Positions 6,923-17,433 of a stretch of 29,511 nucleotides of DNA are shown here, in pieces; position 1 is the first letter of the stretch, and each line of letters starts with the position of its first letter. Below the pieces are notes generated by a model. It saw only the letters and a program-made list of their open reading frames with translations, had not been told where the DNA came from and searched no databases. The translations under genes and the position numbers were made by a program. The stretch comes from a virus, in the IMG/VR virus record IMGVR_UViG_3300032245_000994, positions 1 to 29,511 of that record. One strand, 5' to 3'.

Positions 6923-8321
6923 CGTTCAACGATTATTTTTAGAAATGATGTTGGAAGATGCACAAAGTTATGTGCGTGTTCAGAACATCTACAACCCACA
7001 AAACTTTGACAAAAGTTTGCGACCTGCGGCTGAGTTCATTAAAGAACATTCAGACAAGCACAAGACCTTGCCTGAGCGCACACAGATTGCAGCCACCACA
7101 GGTATTAAGTTACAGGCTGTGCCAGACTTGAATGAAGGTCACTTTGACTGGTTCATGGGCGAGTTTGAACAGTTTACCAAGCGTCAAGAATTGGAACGTG
7201 CTATTTTAAAAGCGGCAGATATGCTGGAAAAAGGCGACTTCGAGCCAGTGGAAAAACTGATCAAAGACGCTGTACAAATATCTTTGACCAAAGACATGGG
7301 CACAGACTACTTCAGTGACCCCAAAAGCCGTATTGAAAAGTATTTCAATTCAGGTGGGCAAGTAAGCACAGGTTGGCCACAACTGGACAGATTGCTGTAT
7401 GGTGGATTCAGTCGTGGTGAACTTAATATCTTTGCAGGTGGATCAGGATCTGGCAAATCTTTGGTCATGATGAACATTGCACTAAACTGGTTGCAACAAG
7501 GACTCAGTGGTGTGTACATCACACTAGAACTTTCAGAAGAACTAACGTCATTGCGAACAGATGCCATGCTCACAAACATGAGCACCAAGGATATTCGCAA
7601 AGACATTGACACCACAGAACTCAAAGTCAAACTGGTGGCCAAGAAGTCCGGCAACTATCAAGTCAAAGGCTTGCCGGCACAAAGCAACATCAACGACATA
7701 CGTGCATATCTAAAAGAGTATCAAATACAAACAGGCAAAAAAGTAGACTTTGTGATGATTGACTACTTGGACTTGTTGATGCCTGTTAGCGCCAAAGTTT
7801 CACCCAATGACTTGTTTGTCAAAGACAAGTATGTGAGTGAAGAACTGCGCAACTTGGCCAAAGAACTGGGATTCTTAATGGTCACAGCAAGTCAGTTAAA
7901 TCGTAGTGCTGTGGAAGAAATTGAGTTTGATCACAGTCACATCAGCGGTGGTATTTCAAAGATTAACACAGCAGACAATGTGTTTGGTATCTTTACAAGT
8001 CGTGCTATGAAAGAGCGTGGCAAGTATCAGATACAGTGTATGAAGTCTCGAAGCTCGACCGGCGTTGGTCAAAAAATTGATTTGGAGTACAACATTGAAA
8101 CAATGCGCATTACTGATGAAGGCGGAGAAGATGGAGATGCTTATTCAAAGAAACCATCTGCGTCAATCATGGACTCGATCAAAGCCCGCAGTCAAGTTAG
8201 CCAGCCTACTGAAAACACAGAAGCCCCACCATGGGACAACGGCGAACCTGCACCAAAAATCACAGCAGATGTGCAAAGTGCAAAACTAAAACAATTGCTG
8301 GGGAAGATTAAAACATCATGA
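6900..8321 (+). CDS. 41: Replicative DnaB-like helicase, T4 gp41-like
   Basis: 473 residues, the same size as T4 gp41 (475). Helical N-terminal domain to about residue 130, then a RecA-like motor: Walker A GGSGSGKS (180-187), Walker B VDFVMIDYLDLL (about 280-291), TASQLNR (sensor/motif H3 type) and SHISGG, TADNVFGIF near the end of the core. It drives 5'-3' unwinding at the fork as a hexamer and stimulates the gp61 primase encoded upstream. Start is TTG 6900 with AAGGA about nine bases upstream; starting at TTG keeps the conserved LKEYGLDVQRLF N-terminus that ATG choices further in would remove. The last 60 residues are low-complexity. Confidence 0.92.
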   Translation: MLKEYGLDVQRLFLEMMLEDAQSYVRVQNIYNPQNFDKSLRPAAEFIKEHSDKHKTLPERTQIAATTGIKLQAVPDLNEGHFDWFMGEFEQFTKRQELERAILKAADMLEKGDFEPVEKLIKDAVQISLTKDMGTDYFSDPKSRIEKYFNSGGQVSTGWPQLDRLLYGGFSRGELNIFAGGSGSGKSLVMMNIALNWLQQGLSGVYITLELSEELTSLRTDAMLTNMSTKDIRKDIDTTELKVKLVAKKSGNYQVKGLPAQSNINDIRAYLKEYQIQTGKKVDFVMIDYLDLLMPVSAKVSPNDLFVKDKYVSEELRNLAKELGFLMVTASQLNRSAVEEIEFDHSHISGGISKINTADNVFGIFTSRAMKERGKYQIQCMKSRSSTGVGQKIDLEYNIETMRITDEGGEDGDAYSKKPSASIMDSIKARSQVSQPTENTEAPPWDNGEPAPKITADVQSAKLKQLLGKIKTS

Positions 8322-9418
8322 GTAATTTGTATTGTTCAATGATACATAACGGGCTTGAGTTATCTTTTCATAAATCAATACCGACCGCACAGCACTGCTG
8401 TCTCAGATCAACTAGATTCCCAATTGACATAACTCAAAATTTTTGGCGCGATAAAAATTTAATTGATCTTAGACAAATCAATCAAAAAAATATCTGGGCA
8501 CCTGGTTGTGAAAATTGCGAACGATTAGAATCGTCTGGGCTCGAAAGTTTTCGAACTGGAATGAATCAAAATTTTGGAATTGACAAATATCATGTATCGG
8601 GACCGTCTAGGATTGATCTTATGTTTGACATCAGTTGCAATCTGGCCTGCAGAAGCTGTGGCCCACGACTCAGTACCACTTGGCAAAAACATCTCAAAGA
8701 CAATAATTTATGGAACAATACAACATTTTCCCCAAACAACTATCAAGACGTAATCACGGCCCTGCAACAACTAGATTTGTCTAATTTAAAAATGTTGGTA
8801 TTCTGCGGCGGCGAAACACTGCTGGGGCAAACTTATTGGAAAGTAACCGAGTGGTTGGCAAACAATGTACCCAATGCCAAACAACAGCTCACAGTGTGTT
8901 TTCAGACCAATGGCACACAGCCTATTTTGGAAAAAAATTATGATCTAATAGATCGATTTCATTTGGTTAAACTGCATGTGAGTTTAGACGGGGTTGGTGA
9001 CAGATTCAATTATCTTCGTTGGCCTGCAAGTTGGAGTCAAGTGGTTGACAATATCATGCGCATTCGTGAACTTGCACCTAGCAATACTATGTTTTTGATT
9101 GAAGAAACTATTACTATTTTTAATCTGTATTACCGCCACGAATTAGCTACCTGGATAAAAAATAACTTTGTAACCAACAGAGAAGGCGACATAGTTAACC
9201 ATACACAGCATTTGGCACATGGCTGGTTCAACTTGCGTAATTGCAGTCAACCATATGTAGATTACATACGCACAACTGACAGCAACAACTTGATACCCAA
9301 AGATTGGAAAGAAAATTCTTTTGAAATACAAAAAATGTTAGCCCAGATACACAAATTTGATCAGATCAGAGGAGAATCGTTTGCAAAAACTTTTCCTGAG
9401 GTTGCTGACTTTTATTGA
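8318..9418 (+). CDS. Radical SAM protein with N-terminal twitch/SPASM-like cysteines (copy 1)
   Basis: 366 residues. The radical SAM [4Fe-4S] motif is CNLACRSC (C107-x3-C111-x2-C114); FCGGET later gives the GGE motif that binds the SAM amino group. Upstream, C6, C27-C28 and C64-x2-C67 form a second cysteine set like a twitch or SPASM auxiliary cluster. A block SLDGVGDRFNYLRWPASW matches copy 2 at 15824. Such enzymes start reactions with a 5'-deoxyadenosyl radical; substrate unknown, and no peptide precursor gene is seen nearby. ATG 8318 overlaps the helicase stop (ATGA). A/T-rich with many poly-A/T runs, unlike gp41 just before it, so probably acquired separately. Confidence 0.8.
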   Translation: MSNLYCSMIHNGLELSFHKSIPTAQHCCLRSTRFPIDITQNFWRDKNLIDLRQINQKNIWAPGCENCERLESSGLESFRTGMNQNFGIDKYHVSGPSRIDLMFDISCNLACRSCGPRLSTTWQKHLKDNNLWNNTTFSPNNYQDVITALQQLDLSNLKMLVFCGGETLLGQTYWKVTEWLANNVPNAKQQLTVCFQTNGTQPILEKNYDLIDRFHLVKLHVSLDGVGDRFNYLRWPASWSQVVDNIMRIRELAPSNTMFLIEETITIFNLYYRHELATWIKNNFVTNREGDIVNHTQHLAHGWFNLRNCSQPYVDYIRTTDSNNLIPKDWKENSFEIQKMLAQIHKFDQIRGESFAKTFPEVADFY

Positions 9419-9485: not shown

Positions 9486-9734
9486 ATGCAAAAAAAGACT
9501 CGCAGTTTGTTAGAAGAGCTGGATGCTATGTACATCGAGCGCGATAATCGACATATCATAGAAAATCGTGCCACTAATGTAATTGCATCTGCTATACGCT
9601 TGCTGGAACAGATTGATGCCAGCTACAGCCCTGATGTGGCACAAAATTTACAACGCAAATTGATCAATGCCATCAGTCAACGAGACCCAGGCAAGTTTAC
9701 ACGTACTGTAAGGAAAACTGATGCAAATTCATGA
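9486..9734 (+). CDS. Small conserved phage protein
   Basis: 82 residues from ATG 9486; GTG 9477 in frame would place the AAGG at 9470-9473 too close. The protein is mostly helical and charged (SLLEELDAMYIERDNRHIIENRATNVI...), with LINAISQRDPGKFTR near the end; I recall similar short proteins in aquatic T4-like phages, without a known role. It overlaps the next gene by 14 bases. Helix-rich and without membrane segments or cysteines. Confidence 0.65.
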   Translation: MQKKTRSLLEELDAMYIERDNRHIIENRATNVIASAIRLLEQIDASYSPDVAQNLQRKLINAISQRDPGKFTRTVRKTDANS

Positions 9735-10308
9735 AATAAGCCACCCAGTGCAGATCAAAGAAGGTTTCTTCAGCAACATTGGCAATGCTATCACACAAAA
9801 CAAACAACAGCAACAAATCACATCATTGACCGACAAAGCATTTGGGGTCTGGGACAAGTATGCTCAAAATCTCAAAGCAAACACACCTGATCCTGCAAGA
9901 TATGAACAATTGTATCGTCAAGCACTTGAAGCCTTTGTGCAAAAAAATCTCATGAGAGGTGAGCGCATTGAGTATGCAATCAATCAACAGGAAATTGACC
10001 AGTTGATCAACAACATAACTGCGGCTCGTGACACCCCTGCTCAAGTCCATCAATTGTTTTCACAAATGGTTCAGCAGGCTGCTCTGAGTCAACAACAGGC
10101 CAGCAGTAGATCTAAAGCCACCGCTGGCACCAATAAATCACAAGTCACAGTGATCAACAAAGATCCTGCCTTGGTACAGTTTCAAAATGTAAACTATGTG
10201 ATCAATGATCAAGGCGAGTGGATTGGCCTAAACAATTCAAGAGTGGTACCACAGAGTTTTCAACAGTTCCTTGACGACGAGTTAAACAAGGCTCTGGGCA
10301 CACCATGA
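9721..10308 (+). CDS. Conserved hypothetical protein, possible internal/virion protein
   Basis: 195 residues, glutamine-rich and helical, with a more structured C-terminus (VNYVINDQGEWIGLNNSRVVP). TAAGGA at 9709-9714 supports ATG 9721. The N-terminus MQIHEISH contains I-x-E directly after the start, which fits the (L/I)-x-E site cut by T4 prohead protease gp21 in capsid-targeted internal proteins; this is inference. It is coupled to the double nucleotidyltransferase gene downstream (ATGA at 10305), so the two may act or be packaged together. Family function unknown to me. Confidence 0.65.
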   Translation: MQIHEISHPVQIKEGFFSNIGNAITQNKQQQQITSLTDKAFGVWDKYAQNLKANTPDPARYEQLYRQALEAFVQKNLMRGERIEYAINQQEIDQLINNITAARDTPAQVHQLFSQMVQQAALSQQQASSRSKATAGTNKSQVTVINKDPALVQFQNVNYVINDQGEWIGLNNSRVVPQSFQQFLDDELNKALGTP

Positions 10309-12272
10309 AAACACTGAAGCAATTGTTAGAAGGCGGCAACGTTTTCAAAGACGGCGACGGCAAACCGCTTACTGGTCGCATAAATCAAAGTGATGTTCCT
10401 GAAACTGTGTTGTGGATTGAACAGCTTACCGGTATTGATTTCCCACGTGAACGCTGGTTAGGTAGCACAGGAAAAGCACCTACATCAGGTGACATGGACC
10501 TGGCGGTAGACACCAGTGAAATCAGCAAGGAACAACTGGCCGCTAGATTATCACAGTGGGCTATTAGTCACAAACTCAAACCTGAAGAATGGGTGAAAAA
10601 AGGTGGCGAAGTTCATTTGCGCACTCCCATTGCGGGCCGACCACAAAACGGCTATGTGCAAACAGACTTCATGTTTTTCCCCAACTTGGATTGGGGTACA
10701 TTCTTCTACTCGGGTGGAGAAGACTCTGCATATAAAGGCATGAACCGCAATGTGTTGATGTCTAGCATTGCCAAACAACTGGGTCTTAAAGTAGGTGCCA
10801 ATGGCATGTTCAGCCGCACTACAAATCAACTAGTGGATGGTGGCATGGATCCTGACTATGTAGCCAAAGCATTGTTGGGTCCACGTGCCACTAGAGAAAA
10901 TTTAAAAAATGTAGAAAGCATTTTTGCTGCACTGGCCAAAGACAAAGACAAAGAAGCCAAGGTCAAAGACTTTAGGGATTACTTGAACCGAGAAGGACTG
11001 GCACAACCTGATGCTGTGCAAGAAAACACAGACACTTACTTTCTGGCACGTCTGCGAGATAGAATTGTAAATCAAGGCATGCAGCCCCTGGTAGAGACTC
11101 CAAGAAGTTTGTACAAAATCTATGAAGCAGCAGATGGCAATGTAGGCGGCAAGGCCAAGGGCATTGAACACCTGGAAGATCTGGTGTTCCGCAAAGGCAC
11201 CACTGGTATTAGAGAAGCTTTGGCCATTGTGGCTGCTGTGTCTCAAGACCCCGGCACCACCACAGTCAAGTGGGACGGCAAACCTGCCATTATATTTGGT
11301 CGAGATGACAACGGCACATTTATTTTAACTGATGTGGCCGGCTTTGGTGCCAAAGGCTACAACGGCTTGTTTACCAGTCCCACAGCACTGGCCAATCAAA
11401 TGGCACAACGTGATGCTACGGCACAAGCCAAAGGCAATGCTGCCACTCGTGTGCAAGAGCTGGTGCCTATTTACAGTGGACTGTGGCCCATGCTTGAAGC
11501 CGCAGTGCCCAAGAATTTTCGTGGATACATTCACGGTGACTTGTTGTACACCAGTCAACCCCCCTTGGTAGCTGGCAACTATGTATTTAGACCCAACACC
11601 ATTCCATATCGCATACCTGCCAACAGTGATGTGGGACGGCGCATTGGCGACAGCGAAGTTGGCGTGGCCATACACACGTACTATCCTGAACCAGGTGCAC
11701 CAAAACAAGCACTGACTCAGGCACAAGTGGACAAATTACGCAAGGTGCCTGGTTTGTTGTTAATTGAACCAGTAACTGCCAAGGAACCAGTTAAACCAGA
11801 ATCAGTACAAGTTAAAAATTTAAAAACACTGTTGAGAACACACGGCGCTGCCATTGACGGATTGTTTAATCCTGCAGAACTCAGAGCACTGGAAATTACA
11901 GACTTGCCTAAACTGTGTGTGGACTACATCAACAGCCTGGTGGGTGATGAATCTGTGGTAGGCTTTGATCCAAATACCTTGTTGCCAGGGTTTGGTGCTT
12001 ATTTGCAGAAAAAAGTTTCCGCCAGAAAATACAACAACATCGTGGAATACCTGCAGAGTCCACGCAGTAATTCTGATGGCATAACAGCCGCATTTTCTGC
12101 TTTTATCTTGTTGCACAACATCAAAGAAGATCTGCAACAAAAACTGGATCTTCAACATCCAGGGCAAGAAGGCTGGGTGTTTTCCACACCTGCTGGGGTG
12201 GCCAAAGCAGTCAATAGATTTGGGTTTAGCCGTGCCAATCGTGCTGTAAACAACCCAGAAACCATGAGCTAA
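10305..12272 (+). CDS. Two-domain nucleotidyltransferase: pol-beta-type plus ligase-like
   Basis: 655 residues. N-terminal half: LGSTGKAPTSGDMDLAVD (52-69) fits the G-S...D-x-D signature of pol-beta-fold nucleotidyltransferases, with D63/D65 and a likely third metal ligand D121 in VQTDFMFF. C-terminal half: KWDGKPA (322-328) fits motif I (K-x-D-G) of covalent nucleotidyltransferases such as DNA/RNA ligases, with K322 the candidate for AMP attachment; YIHGDLLY (408-415) fits motif III with D in place of the usual E. This suggests nucleic-acid end healing or tRNA-type repair, but no substrate is shown. The N-terminus MKTLKQLLEGG resembles T4 capsid-targeting peptides (MKTYQEFIAE), so the protein may be packaged and injected. 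Confidence 0.6.
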   Translation: MKTLKQLLEGGNVFKDGDGKPLTGRINQSDVPETVLWIEQLTGIDFPRERWLGSTGKAPTSGDMDLAVDTSEISKEQLAARLSQWAISHKLKPEEWVKKGGEVHLRTPIAGRPQNGYVQTDFMFFPNLDWGTFFYSGGEDSAYKGMNRNVLMSSIAKQLGLKVGANGMFSRTTNQLVDGGMDPDYVAKALLGPRATRENLKNVESIFAALAKDKDKEAKVKDFRDYLNREGLAQPDAVQENTDTYFLARLRDRIVNQGMQPLVETPRSLYKIYEAADGNVGGKAKGIEHLEDLVFRKGTTGIREALAIVAAVSQDPGTTTVKWDGKPAIIFGRDDNGTFILTDVAGFGAKGYNGLFTSPTALANQMAQRDATAQAKGNAATRVQELVPIYSGLWPMLEAAVPKNFRGYIHGDLLYTSQPPLVAGNYVFRPNTIPYRIPANSDVGRRIGDSEVGVAIHTYYPEPGAPKQALTQAQVDKLRKVPGLLLIEPVTAKEPVKPESVQVKNLKTLLRTHGAAIDGLFNPAELRALEITDLPKLCVDYINSLVGDESVVGFDPNTLLPGFGAYLQKKVSARKYNNIVEYLQSPRSNSDGITAAFSAFILLHNIKEDLQQKLDLQHPGQEGWVFSTPAGVAKAVNRFGFSRANRAVNNPETMS

Positions 12273-13774: not shown

Positions 13775-14268
13775 TCGACACTGAAAAAGCAACACGTTTG
13801 TTTCGACGTGAAATTCAGGACATCAGCCCCAATACAATTTGGAAAAATATCAATGGTGTATACCAGGTATTCGGGCACTATCAAATATTCCCCGAAACTG
13901 ATGGATTTAGAGTGTTTTGTCATGCCACAGAAGTGGGAGTATTTGCTACCACAAGAACAGCACTGAGTTGGTGTATTGCTGACAAATATCGAGCTTACAA
14001 CACTGCACGTGAGCTATTGACATTGGACAACAAATTAACCAATTTAAAAAATGACATTGCAGTACGAGCCGCTGTGGGAGACCGCAGTCGAGACGCAAAT
14101 CTACGTGAAACCATATTGGTCAAACTTGAAAACAAAATCATGCAGAAAAAACAGTTAGAAAATGAGTTAACCAAATATGTCAATTGGGCTAAATATTATC
14201 AACAAAGAGGATTCAACAATGAAACTGCAAGAACTGGCTCCGGCCAACACATTAAAACATACCGCTAA
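13771..14268 (+). CDS. Conserved T4-like phage protein
   Basis: 165 residues from ATG 13771, which overlaps the preceding stop; an in-frame ATG at 13702 lies inside the previous gene and is rejected. The N-terminal half is globular (TIWKNINGVYQVFGHYQIFPE), the C-terminal half a coiled coil (TLDNKLTNLKNDIAVRA..., KIMQKKQLENELTKYVNWAKYYQQRGFNNE). I recall this family as conserved in aquatic T4-like phages with no function. Its 3' end overlaps the next gene by 50 bases in another frame, unusually long for this genome, and contains the late box of that gene. Confidence 0.7.
   Translation: MIDTEKATRLFRREIQDISPNTIWKNINGVYQVFGHYQIFPETDGFRVFCHATEVGVFATTRTALSWCIADKYRAYNTARELLTLDNKLTNLKNDIAVRAAVGDRSRDANLRETILVKLENKIMQKKQLENELTKYVNWAKYYQQRGFNNETARTGSGQHIKTYR
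14189..14195 (+). promoter_or_regulatory. T4-late-like promoter box
   Basis: CTAAATA inside the end of the 13771 gene, 23 bases before ATG 14219; AGAGGA at 14206-14211 lies between them. Confidence 0.5.
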
Positions 14269-15061
14269 AGTACTCGAAAGTCACTTTGGCGATCGTTTGA
14301 GATTTGACTCAATAACCAAGGCTCAAGCTCGCGGCATGTTAAAGCGTGTGCGCAGTTTGGTAAATGAACATCGCAACACTCCAGAGTTTCACTACAGTGA
14401 ACAGAATCCCAACTATTTGAAGTTGGTGATGTTGGAAAATGCTCTAGCAGCCAGGGTATCGGAAGTCATGGATCCCAGACAACGAGCTCTGCAAATGACA
14501 CAACAACAGGCTCAAAAGCGTGATCTTCAAGACGCTATCAAAGCCAAGCAAAAAGAAATAGCTGAGTTGCAAAAACAAATGGTATTGACCAGCCGTACAG
14601 TGGCCGCAGAGAATTTCAGAAACCGTCGTCGCGCTTTGAAAGAAAGCGAAATTCAGCAAGCTCAAGTTATCTTGGCTGCTCAAGACATGGTTGATCAAGT
14701 GCAAAAAATGAGCGAACAAGTCAGTGCCATGCAATTCAAAGATTTGCCAGCTCTGGTTGATCAAATCAAGAATGAAGTTGGTGTAGATCAAGCCACTCAG
14801 TTCAACGGTGATGCCAGTGCTGCCTTGAGCGGGCTGTTGCAAAATCTACAAGGTGCTAGACAACAACTAGAAGCCGCACTGGGTGTGGTAACTGGACAAG
14901 CACCCACAGTGCCAGGTATGGATGACCAAACTGATTTAAATGTAGATATCGACGCAGTTGAGCCACCAGCTGAACCAGGTGCAGATCTAGAAGAACCTGA
15001 TCTCAGCGTTGACGCAAATCTTTCCACACCGGCTGCTAGTTTGGGACGTGGTCGCAGATAA
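14219..15061 (+). CDS. Coiled-coil, acidic-tailed protein, possible scaffold or internal head protein
   Basis: 280 residues from ATG 14219, chosen for the AGAGGA site; an upstream in-frame ATG at 14177 lacks one. The N-terminus MKLQELAPANT has L-x-E at residues 3-5, like prohead-protease-cut targeting peptides. Residues about 95-215 are glutamine/alanine-rich coiled coil (QQQAQKRDLQDAIKAKQKE, EIQQAQVILAAQDMVDQVQK). The end is acidic and proline-rich (NVDIDAVEPPAEPG) and finishes SLGRGRR. Coiled coil with acidic tail and possible cleavage site fit a head core or internal protein, but the sequence does not prove it. Confidence 0.6.
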   Translation: MKLQELAPANTLKHTAKVLESHFGDRLRFDSITKAQARGMLKRVRSLVNEHRNTPEFHYSEQNPNYLKLVMLENALAARVSEVMDPRQRALQMTQQQAQKRDLQDAIKAKQKEIAELQKQMVLTSRTVAAENFRNRRRALKESEIQQAQVILAAQDMVDQVQKMSEQVSAMQFKDLPALVDQIKNEVGVDQATQFNGDASAALSGLLQNLQGARQQLEAALGVVTGQAPTVPGMDDQTDLNVDIDAVEPPAEPGADLEEPDLSVDANLSTPAASLGRGRR

Positions 15062-15451: not shown

Positions 15452-15823
15452 ATGGCCTATTCCCAAAAAGTAATTGATCACTATGAAAATCCACGCAACG
15501 TGGGCAAGTTTGAAGTTGATGACTCAATTGGCACAGGCATGGTAGGAGCACCTGCCTGCGGCGATGTTATGAAATTGCAAATCAAAGTCGAAGATGGGAT
15601 TATTGTAGATGCCAAGTTCAAAACATACGGCTGCGGAAGTGCGATTGCCTCATCCTCTCTTGTTACCGAGTGGGTTAAAGGACGAACGCTTGACGAGGCA
15701 GCAGCTCTTAAAAATTCAGAGATTGCTCAAGAACTCGCACTGCCACCAGTCAAGATTCATTGTTCTATTCTTGCTGAAGATGCTATCCGAGCCGCAGTAG
15801 AAGACTATCGAAGCAAACATTAA
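15452..15823 (+). CDS. iscU: IscU Fe-S cluster scaffold protein
   Basis: 123 residues, near full length for IscU (128 in E. coli). The three cluster ligands are present: C36 (PACGD), C61 (TYGCGSA) and C104 (KIHCSI), with D38 and the LPPVK motif (97-101) recognised by the chaperone HscA. By eye it matches E. coli IscU over nearly its whole length, far more closely than phage proteins usually match host ones. IscU receives sulfur from IscS and builds [2Fe-2S]/[4Fe-4S] clusters. No iscS is seen here, so it would have to use host IscS and HscA/HscB (inference). It has its own promoter and strong AAGGAG, and abuts a radical SAM gene with no gap. Confidence 0.95.
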   Translation: MAYSQKVIDHYENPRNVGKFEVDDSIGTGMVGAPACGDVMKLQIKVEDGIIVDAKFKTYGCGSAIASSSLVTEWVKGRTLDEAAALKNSEIAQELALPPVKIHCSILAEDAIRAAVEDYRSKH

Positions 15824-17113
15824 ATGATTTTTCAAAATCTCACACCATTAGAAAAAGATTCTACTGTAGAGAAAAAAATTCAATGGTTGAAAACACACAA
15901 TCATTTTTGTGCCAAGCCTTTTCACACACTGCAATTGGAAATAAATCCCAATGGTCAGCTGATATCTAGCCCATGTTGCAACTATTCTGGTGACATAGGT
16001 CTTTCTTCTCTGGACCAACAATTCTCCATAATCAAAGCAGACGTAGCCAATGGCATACCACACAAAAAATGCCACCGATGTTGGGACACCGAAAAATCAA
16101 ATGATTACTCAGAACGAATTAGAGACTTAATATATTGGCCAGTAGATTCAGTTAATAAATTTTTAAACACTGCCCAGGTATCTGAATTTAATATAGGCAT
16201 CAAGTTTAGTAATTTTTGTAACTTGGCCTGCAGAAGTTGTGGCCCACTACTCAGCAGCACTTATGCTCAGATCAAAAATCAATCAGTTCCGTTGGCTGTA
16301 TCAACGGATATCAGTGAAGATTCAACAACCTGGCCAGAAATATTAGACTACACAAAAAAACTAACTGAAACATATGAATTGGTCAGAGTAGGATTGATTG
16401 GCGGAGAAACTATGTTACAGAGAGGTGCAGAACAATACATTGATTATCTAGCGTCTTTGCCCAATTCAAATAATGTAGTTATAGCATTGACTTCTAATTT
16501 TACCACACTCAATGACAAATTATTCAAGCAAATTAGTCATTTTAGAAGATTTGATTTGACTGCCAGCATTGACAGCGTTGGCCCTAACTATCATTATGTA
16601 CGTTGGCCAGCACAATTTTCAAAGATACAACAAAACATTGACAATTATATTGAAATACGAAAAAACACTCTCACATTGACCACATTTACTATTGCGTCGG
16701 TGTGGTCATTGAATAATATCTTTTATATCAATGAATATCTTGATTTTTTACTGGATTGCCTGAAAAAACAGCCAGATTTGATAGTGCATATTTTACACCT
16801 TGATAGACCACCTCCTATTGCAATAGAAAATCTTCCGGTGAAATATCGATCAGCATTGTTATCATACATACAGTCAGCTTTGGCTCATCCGGTGATCAAT
16901 TATGCAAATGCATTGCCAATGAAAATATTCCTTGAAGGTGTAGAAAGTTTTTTAAACAGCACTGTTGTAGTGCAAGACTTATTTGATAATTTTTTAAAAT
17001 TCACAGCCGACTTTGACCGCCGTACAAATTGCGAATTTGAAAAATTCAATTCAAGATTTTATCAAATACTGTCAGATGTTGATCAGAATACATACAAAAA
17101 TTATTTGCTATGA
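15824..17113 (+). CDS. Radical SAM protein with N-terminal twitch-like domain (copy 2)
   Basis: 429 residues. Cluster motif CNLACRSC (C132-x3-C136-x2-C139) and GGE in GLIGGETML. The N-terminal domain has C29 (FCAKPF), C51-C52 (SPCC) and C83-x2-C86 (KKCHRCW), a twitch/SPASM-like second cluster site. It shares the motif, LxGGE and SIDSVGPNYHYVRWPAQ block with the 8318 gene, so the two are paralogues. The start codon follows the iscU stop directly, with no Shine-Dalgarno, so translation is probably coupled. It sits between iscU and iscA, suggesting that the cluster-assembly genes serve this cluster-rich enzyme. Substrate unknown. A/T-rich compared with iscU and iscA on either side. Confidence 0.85.
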   Translation: MIFQNLTPLEKDSTVEKKIQWLKTHNHFCAKPFHTLQLEINPNGQLISSPCCNYSGDIGLSSLDQQFSIIKADVANGIPHKKCHRCWDTEKSNDYSERIRDLIYWPVDSVNKFLNTAQVSEFNIGIKFSNFCNLACRSCGPLLSSTYAQIKNQSVPLAVSTDISEDSTTWPEILDYTKKLTETYELVRVGLIGGETMLQRGAEQYIDYLASLPNSNNVVIALTSNFTTLNDKLFKQISHFRRFDLTASIDSVGPNYHYVRWPAQFSKIQQNIDNYIEIRKNTLTLTTFTIASVWSLNNIFYINEYLDFLLDCLKKQPDLIVHILHLDRPPPIAIENLPVKYRSALLSYIQSALAHPVINYANALPMKIFLEGVESFLNSTVVVQDLFDNFLKFTADFDRRTNCEFEKFNSRFYQILSDVDQNTYKNYLL

Positions 17114-17433
17114 TCTCATTAACCGACGCTGCCAAAAATAAAATTCAAAAACTAGTTGAACTCAAAGGCTATGCTGGCATACGACTAGGAGTTAAAACCA
17201 CTGGTTGCTCTGGCTTGGCTTATGTGTTAGAATATGTCAAAGAATACATACCTGACCCTGCCACAATAAACTATGCGCAAGATTCATTTTGTGTGCTAGT
17301 AGATAAAAAACATGACGTATATTTGTCGGGCACACAGATAGACTATGTACGCCAAGGCCTCAACGAAGGCTTTGAATTTACCAACCCCAATGAACGTGAC
17401 CGCTGTGGTTGCGGAGAAAGTTTTAGAGTTTAA
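17110..17433 (+). CDS. iscA: IscA A-type Fe-S carrier protein
   Basis: 107 residues, the same as E. coli IscA. The three conserved cysteines are present: C33 (TTGCSG), C99 and C101 (RCGCGES), along with the typical LNEGFEFTNPN block. IscA proteins take clusters from IscU to target enzymes and help mature [4Fe-4S] proteins; radical SAM enzymes need such clusters. Start ATG 17110 overlaps the radical SAM stop (ATGA) and its own end overlaps the exonuclease start (TAATG), so it is translated as part of one operon. Resemblance is to proteobacterial IscA rather than to the distant cyanobacterial type, by eye. Confidence 0.93.
   Translation: MISLTDAAKNKIQKLVELKGYAGIRLGVKTTGCSGLAYVLEYVKEYIPDPATINYAQDSFCVLVDKKHDVYLSGTQIDYVRQGLNEGFEFTNPNERDRCGCGESFRV

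Follow-up and report, generated by a model that had tools for sequence, protein, structure and literature searches.

Jumbo phages carry pairs of RlaP, a Pol-beta nucleotidyltransferase (NTase), and an ATP-dependent RNA ligase, and RlaP has been proposed to restore lost nucleotides ahead of the ligase (PMC7824862). The host nuclease RloC removes the wobble nucleotide of tRNA, a loss that may defeat simple ligation (PMC2610378). A second described system is that of the T4 internal head proteins. The prohead protease gp21 cleaves after L/I-X-E, and ten residues of IPIII are enough for packaging (PMC9026906); six residues are removed from Alt, with the cut at ITE-6 (PMC5694885). T4 ipII and ipIII start MKTYQEFIAE, and T4 gp24, also a gp21 substrate, starts MAKINELLRE. 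Here we describe a phage gene that appears to bring features of both systems together.

The window (the whole stretch analyzed, a 29.5-kb virus record) holds T4-like genes for a DnaB-type helicase, a primase, a class Ia ribonucleotide reductase, an exonuclease, and virion proteins. The fused gene is an intact open reading frame of exactly 10305..12272 on the plus strand, and its ATG start overlaps the stop codon of the preceding gene through the letters ATGA (Table 1). The gene at 9486..9734 was assigned its counterparts by its same position after the DnaB helicase gene, with homology judged by eye. The window also holds some unusual phage cargo: two radical-SAM-like proteins (phrog_14086; 8318-9418 and 15824-17113), a NifU-like Fe-S assembly protein (15452-15823), and a protein resembling an A-type Fe-S carrier (17110-17433).

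At least 591 full-length relatives of the fusion protein were confirmed in IMG/VR, and the 80 that we took for comparison are all fused, with 64-74% identity. Among the sequenced phage records searched, 289 hold relatives, nearly all through the DUF6267 half, as do well over a thousand environmental viral contigs. No relative of the fusion protein was found in cellular genomes by an exact-pattern search, which excludes close relatives only. Neither the single protein nor a profile of either half had a significant match when the sequences in the PDB were searched, and searches of NCBIfam and PADLOC gave nothing meaningful. Our literature search found no paper naming DUF6267 and none that connects tRNA repair and RNA ligase with ejected head proteins.

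Table 1. Features of the fused gene and nearby genes. A slash marks the end of a leader or leader-like start.
Feature	Position	Strand	Details
Upstream gene, leader-like start MQKKTRSLLE/E	9486..9734	+	Counterpart of small PA5oct and Atu_ph07 genes annotated virion structural protein
Upstream gene overlapping fusion start, leader-like MQIHEIS...QIKE/G	9721..10308	+	Counterparts in the same place in Phosso, Atu_ph07, and PA5oct
Whole gene, NTase-ligase fusion protein (predicted), 655 aa	10305..12272	+	DUF6267 / phrog_455 in second half
Leader MKTLKQLLE, residues 1-9, predicted capsid-targeting peptide	10305..10331	+	Predicted prohead-protease site L-L-E/G
Pol-beta-type NTase domain, residues 10-230	10332..10994	+	AlphaFold2 pLDDT >80 over nearly all; Foldseek
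NTase motif G53-S54...D63-x-D65 (metal/nucleotide binding)	10461..10499	+	Invariant in 31 fused relatives and also in stand-alone ones
Third catalytic Asp of NTase, VQTD121FMFF	10656..10679	+	Q119 and D121 invariant; D121 also in nine diverse NTases
Interdomain linker, residues 231-284, partly disordered	10995..11156	+	pLDDT 36-70 over 231-275
Predicted ligase-type covalent nucleotidyltransferase domain, DUF6267, residues 285-655	11157..12269	+	Pfam, model, Foldseek, hhalign
Ligase motif I, T-V-K322-W-D-G-K-P-A	11262..11288	+	K, D, G, and P identical in 50/50
Ligase motif III, YIHGD412LLY (D replaces usual E)	11526..11549	+	GD identical in 50/50
Ligase motif IV, E622-G-W-V-F	12168..12182	+	E, G, and V identical in 50/50
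Ligase motif V, K634-A-V-N-R638 (without second K of usual K-x-K)	12204..12218	+	K and R identical in 50/50
Downstream virion structural protein, leader-like start MKLQE/L	14219..15061	+	phrog_14154, E 2e-13

The two predicted catalytic domains

The original prediction placed a Pol-beta-type and a ligase-type nucleotidyltransferase domain in one polypeptide on the strength of short motifs. All of those motifs are present: GSTGK (53-57), SGDMDLAVD (61-69), VQTDFMFF (118-125), KWDGKPA (322-328), and YIHGDLLY (408-415). Their conservation is not a matter of chance. Across 31/31 full-length relatives, residues G53, S54, G56, D63, D65, D69, Q119, and D121 do not vary. Likewise, the 50 relatives aligned over the second half, which span 21-83% identity, all share K322, D324, G325, G411, D412, E622, G623, V625, K634, and R638, so that K322, whose conservation had been in question, is kept in 50/50. 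Structure prediction gave confident models of both halves, and the reading of two domain types in one protein held. To it we add motif IV (EGWV, 622-625), motif V (K634-AVN-R638), and the leader (1-9), which had not been listed.

The AlphaFold2 model of residues 1-275, built from 28 sequences, has a mean pLDDT of 83.6; in it, disorder is confined to residues 1-10 and the linker. Foldseek matched this half to 106 PDB chains at E <0.001 (best E 1e-4, prob 1.0), and all 50 of the 106 chains listed are DNA polymerase X enzymes: lambda, mu, beta, TdT, and bacterial PolX. Because PolX is over-sampled in the PDB, this result fixes the superfamily and not the substrate of the NTase. A comparison of nine NTases (24-81% identity), which took in stand-alone jumbo-phage copies, left 14 columns invariant, G53, S54, D63, D65, and D121 among them. 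The stand-alone NTases of Atu_ph07, Phosso, PA5oct, and a 462-kb virus (237-299 aa) keep G53, S54, G56, D63, D65, and D121 without exception. With G-S...D-x-D and the third Asp on a palm fold, the NTase half belongs to the Pol-beta nucleotidyltransferase superfamily. Membership of the RlaP family (PF10127) was considered and rejected: Pfam gave no match at E 10, and hhalign against two RlaPs gave prob 0.2. A Pfam search with the stand-alone NTases gave no RlaP match either.

The second half alone is matched by Pfam DUF6267 (PF19782; E 1.5e-29, 103.9 bits against a 27-bit cut-off) and by phrog_455, both families of unassigned function. Its AlphaFold model (380 aa, 50 sequences) has a pLDDT of 88.1. 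The 27 best Foldseek matches in the PDB are all covalent nucleotidyl ligases, none of them significant alone. Fungal tRNA ligase heads them (best E 0.046, TM about 0.2), and DNA ligases III, IV, and I and an archaeal RNA ligase are also among them. In the viral library, Foldseek matched a PA5oct protein of 446 aa (E 4e-5) and, at E 0.014, an Atu_ph07 protein that carries the name RNA ligase. In hhalign, DUF6267 aligned with the split jumbo-phage ligases (prob 94, E 1.4e-7) such that motifs I, IV, and V fall on one another, and the Atu_ph07 split ligase itself matched Pfam RNA_ligase at E 0.002 and 18.7 bits, below the 27-bit cut-off. Motifs I, III, IV, and V, in that order and with the KxDG lysine, predict that the second half is a member of the ligase/capping superfamily. 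The chain of evidence for a ligase is good, and the direct link is weak: the predicted ligase fold of the C-terminal half stood insofar as the best 27 structures are of one kind, but not at the level of any single match.

Three narrower assignments of this half were not borne out. For Rnl1 (PF09511), there was no Pfam match, and the hhalign prob was 0.2 (1.2 for the split relatives). For RNA_ligase (PF09414), Pfam did not match the fusion protein, and the split relative fell under the cut-off. For a DNA ligase or LigD type, the OB-fold after motif V is absent.

The D in place of E in motif III, which the original prediction took as a reason for caution about activity, is no oddity of this protein. 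D412 is invariant in DUF6267, and every member aligned combines it with a motif V without the second K; the split jumbo-phage relatives carry E in motif III. D412 and the lost lysine leave ligase chemistry unproven, and ligase activity could be altered or lost. One or both domains might even be catalytically dead and act in the virion head as structural or nucleic-acid-binding components, a reading that fits these two changes and the naming of the PA5oct copy as a structural protein. We consider it very improbable, as all other catalytic residues of both sites are invariant across highly diverged relatives, which is unexpected for dead enzymes.

Split relatives and the predicted substrate

Split versions, for which a search had been proposed, exist in Atu_ph07, PA5oct, and Phosso. 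The ligase and NTase of Atu_ph07, Phosso, and the 462-kb virus are encoded by separate, overlapping neighbor genes; in PA5oct two genes stand between them. The window and the split phages share a gene order of helicase, small virion-type gene, second virion-type gene, and ligase/NTase. Their fusion in the window and their encoding by neighboring genes elsewhere point to a functional link between the two domains. The DUF6267 proteins of cyanophages, a pelagiphage, Melnitz, and DLP_6 are without an NTase domain, and a search of these DUF6267-only phages, S-PM2 excluded, found no NTase match. In S-PM2, DUF6267 is fused to a cytidylyltransferase-like domain.

Other genes near these loci drew our attention. 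Phosso, a Sinorhizobium phage, has another stand-alone NTase besides the one described; it is diverged (MGGNAF...) and encoded at a distant site (L270:1423-2313, minus strand). Directly downstream of the Atu_ph07 NTase gene are gp061-gp063 (L086:6558-9174), a run of three proteins that begin in the manner of MRLFQLLE, MRWHQLIE, and MKWHQLTE and contain a PLYRG motif recalling Alt-type ADP-ribosyltransferases. An E...D...SxK signature recalling PD-(D/E)xK nucleases is kept at five loci (L087:3641-4660, L088:4028-4945, L084:3932-4990, L089:3887-4972, and L082:4467-5990), which comprise PA5oct gp255, between the PA5oct ligase and NTase, and the genes that immediately precede DUF6267 in marine phages. 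An iterated search showed PA5oct gp255 and the DLP_6 gene to be homologous. Some of these proteins bear T4-type leaders, and the window has no counterpart of the gene. Cytidylyltransferase-like proteins (FGR.NPPT.GH) adjoin DUF6267 or lie near it in marine phages (L083:6210-7307, L089:6598-8550, L088:6673-8841, and L084:7386-9176); those of P-RSM6 and Melnitz have the leader-like starts MITFHVFITE and MKKFSEIIE.

We then asked whether the substrate is RNA or DNA. RNA is favored because the ligase domain is without an OB-fold (the protein ends about 17 residues past motif V, with no strands there in the model), because related phages have a separate DNA-ligase-like gene, and because a 220-kb relative has 12 tRNA genes. 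RNA is thus the more likely substrate, although these points are not decisive. RtcB was not found, and neither Rnl1 nor RlaP was found in the contigs with the fused gene; the related contigs are possibly incomplete, which makes such absences weak.

The competing explanation is an injected DNA end-joining enzyme, PolX plus ligase and LigD-like in concept, that would fill in and join ends or breaks in the phage DNA. By fold, the nearest enzymes to the NTase half are indeed those of PolX, Pol mu, Pol lambda, and TdT among them, DNA ligases are among the matches to the ligase half, and the E...D...SxK neighbor in PA5oct and marine phages would be a plausible trimming partner. However, the stretch after motif V is too short to hold the OB-fold required by DNA ligases, and the related phages already own a DNA-ligase-like gene. 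Moreover, the ligase half has its best single match in a tRNA ligase, and the split relative gives a match to RNA_ligase, if below threshold. We therefore regard DNA end joining as unlikely.

The leader and predicted head packaging

The leader is a finding new relative to the original prediction. MKTLKQLLE ends precisely where the stand-alone NTases begin; these start M-GG-x-A-F (M-SG in PA5oct) and have no leader. In 79/80 fused relatives, 4-9 residues ending in [LI]-x-E precede GGN[VI]F, and the remaining one has no recognizable start. The 73 DUF6267-only relatives yielded 53 distinct Met-containing leaders. Every one of these has [LI]-x-E, most commonly in the form M-x-x-F-x-x-[FY]-[LI]-x-E. 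One of the six search patterns behind this set was the query's own leader, but the leaders recovered are diverse, so that pattern does not explain the result. The DUF6267 proteins of S-CAM4 and P-RSM6 have no leader. By its sequence, the fusion protein has the leader features of T4-type internal head proteins.

The protease that would cut such a leader occurs in related phages. An S77 (gp21-type) prohead protease is encoded by 3/8 contigs with the fused gene, which are partial contigs, and by 9/9 named phages searched, T4 included; the window is too short to hold the gene. Short L/I-x-E motifs are common, with a background of 7%. In the 220-kb relative, an N-terminal [LI]xE is found in 12/215 ordinary ORFs, 4/5 head-assembly ORFs, and 5/10 ORFs in the block that holds the fusion gene. 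The Fisher p values, 9e-5 for the head ORFs and 3e-4 for the fusion-gene block, are descriptive since the blocks were chosen post hoc.

Annotations of virion proteins bear on the split forms. PA5oct NTase gp253 and several of its neighbors are annotated as virion proteins by ESI-MS/MS, the NTase despite having no leader; unlike the NTase, the PA5oct ligase is not annotated as found in the virion. In Atu_ph07, 29 virion proteins lie within CDS 31-76 (PMC6102473). Its ligase and NTase genes are both inside that range, neither product is named as a virion protein, and gp065/gp066 are annotated as hypothetical only.

The protein might instead be made inside the infected cell with both domains active and never be packaged, its leader resembling those of T4 by chance or ancestry. 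Stand-alone NTases and some cyanophage DUF6267 proteins do without a leader, L/I-x-E lies near many protein starts by chance, and no phage carrying the fused gene is known to have had its virion proteome determined. Against this, the motif is kept in all but one fused relative though leader length varies from 4 to 9, it occurs in two separate branches with different leaders, it falls at the boundary between disorder and domain in the model, and neighbor and head genes share [LI]xE starts. We give the unpackaged alternative little credence; the fusion protein, carrying a T4-type leader, is probably packaged and injected.

The 220-kb relative (L279) also encodes candidate internal head proteins with the starts MKPFAKYLAE/S and MRAREFITE/Q (G008:137327-137932 and 140708-141094).

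Proposed action and comparison with known systems

From the computed domain types, conservation, leader pattern, split relatives, and protease in related phages, we propose how cleavage, packaging, injection, catalysis, and substrate may fit together. We lean slightly toward a head-packaged, injected two-domain end-repair enzyme of a T4-like phage, which would fill in and then seal nucleic acid, most likely RNA. MKTLKQLLE would target the precursor into the prohead core, and a gp21-type prohead protease would cut after E9. The mature protein would start GGNVF, the start that stand-alone NTases would reach on loss of Met, and would enter the host together with the phage DNA. There, the Pol-beta-type domain may add one or a few nucleotides at a damaged 3' end, and the ligase-type domain may join the ends through an AMP-K322 intermediate. 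The likeliest target would be tRNA cut by host defense nucleases that also remove a nucleotide (RloC type), and the damage would be countered prior to any phage gene expression. Adding before sealing, and tRNA cut by anticodon nucleases as the target, were parts of the original prediction that we, too, can only infer; the NTase-then-ligase domain order suggests filling, then sealing.

A broader proposal, on which we stay just on the doubtful side, is that T4-like and jumbo phages, as a very widespread group, stock their heads in advance with end-repair enzymes that bear a cleavable leader of T4 type and mend broken tRNA or DNA before first expression. The set would consist of the NTase and the ligase, joined in some phages by a possible nuclease and a cytidylyltransferase-like protein. 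The fusion would be the one-polypeptide form of this set, and DUF6267 would be a so far unrecognized family of packaged ligases. Read as a ligase-type enzyme that fusion and gene neighborhood both link to a Pol-beta NTase, DUF6267 gains a testable role. If the enzyme is packaged, the phage would answer nuclease-based defenses at injection, before T4-type repair genes are expressed, and a short leader rule would allow injected proteins to be predicted in many uncultured T4-like phages.

Among the closest described systems is the RlaP-RNA ligase pair of jumbo phages, with which the locus shares a Pol-beta NTase beside a predicted ligase. By analogy, the fusion protein may work like that pair in one piece. 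However, sequence comparison sets the NTase apart from RlaP, the NTase forms one chain with the ligase, and a packaging-type leader precedes it; Atu_ph07 carries RlaP and the present type of NTase as separate genes. With T4 Rnl1 and RNA_ligase, the second half shares the motif order I (KxDG), III, IV (EGxV), and V and likely AMP-lysine chemistry. It differs from them in the lack of a significant profile match, in the D of motif III, in a motif V of K-x-V-(N/D)-R, and in two insertions, one following motif III and a helical one ahead of motif IV. It is a member of DUF6267/phrog_455, of which most known members are without an NTase. The bacterial enzyme LigD likewise has a polymerase-type and a ligase-type domain in one protein. 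LigD joins an AEP/primase-type polymerase to an OB-fold ligase, whereas the phage protein has a Pol-beta type and no OB-fold. With T4 IPI-III and Alt, it shares a leader of 4-11 residues ending in L/I-x-E and a phage group with an S77 prohead protease, and DUF6267-only relatives have near-identical MKxFxxFLxE leaders. The cargo is what differs: we found no sequence similarity to the internal proteins or Alt, and it is predicted to be a nucleic-acid repair enzyme.
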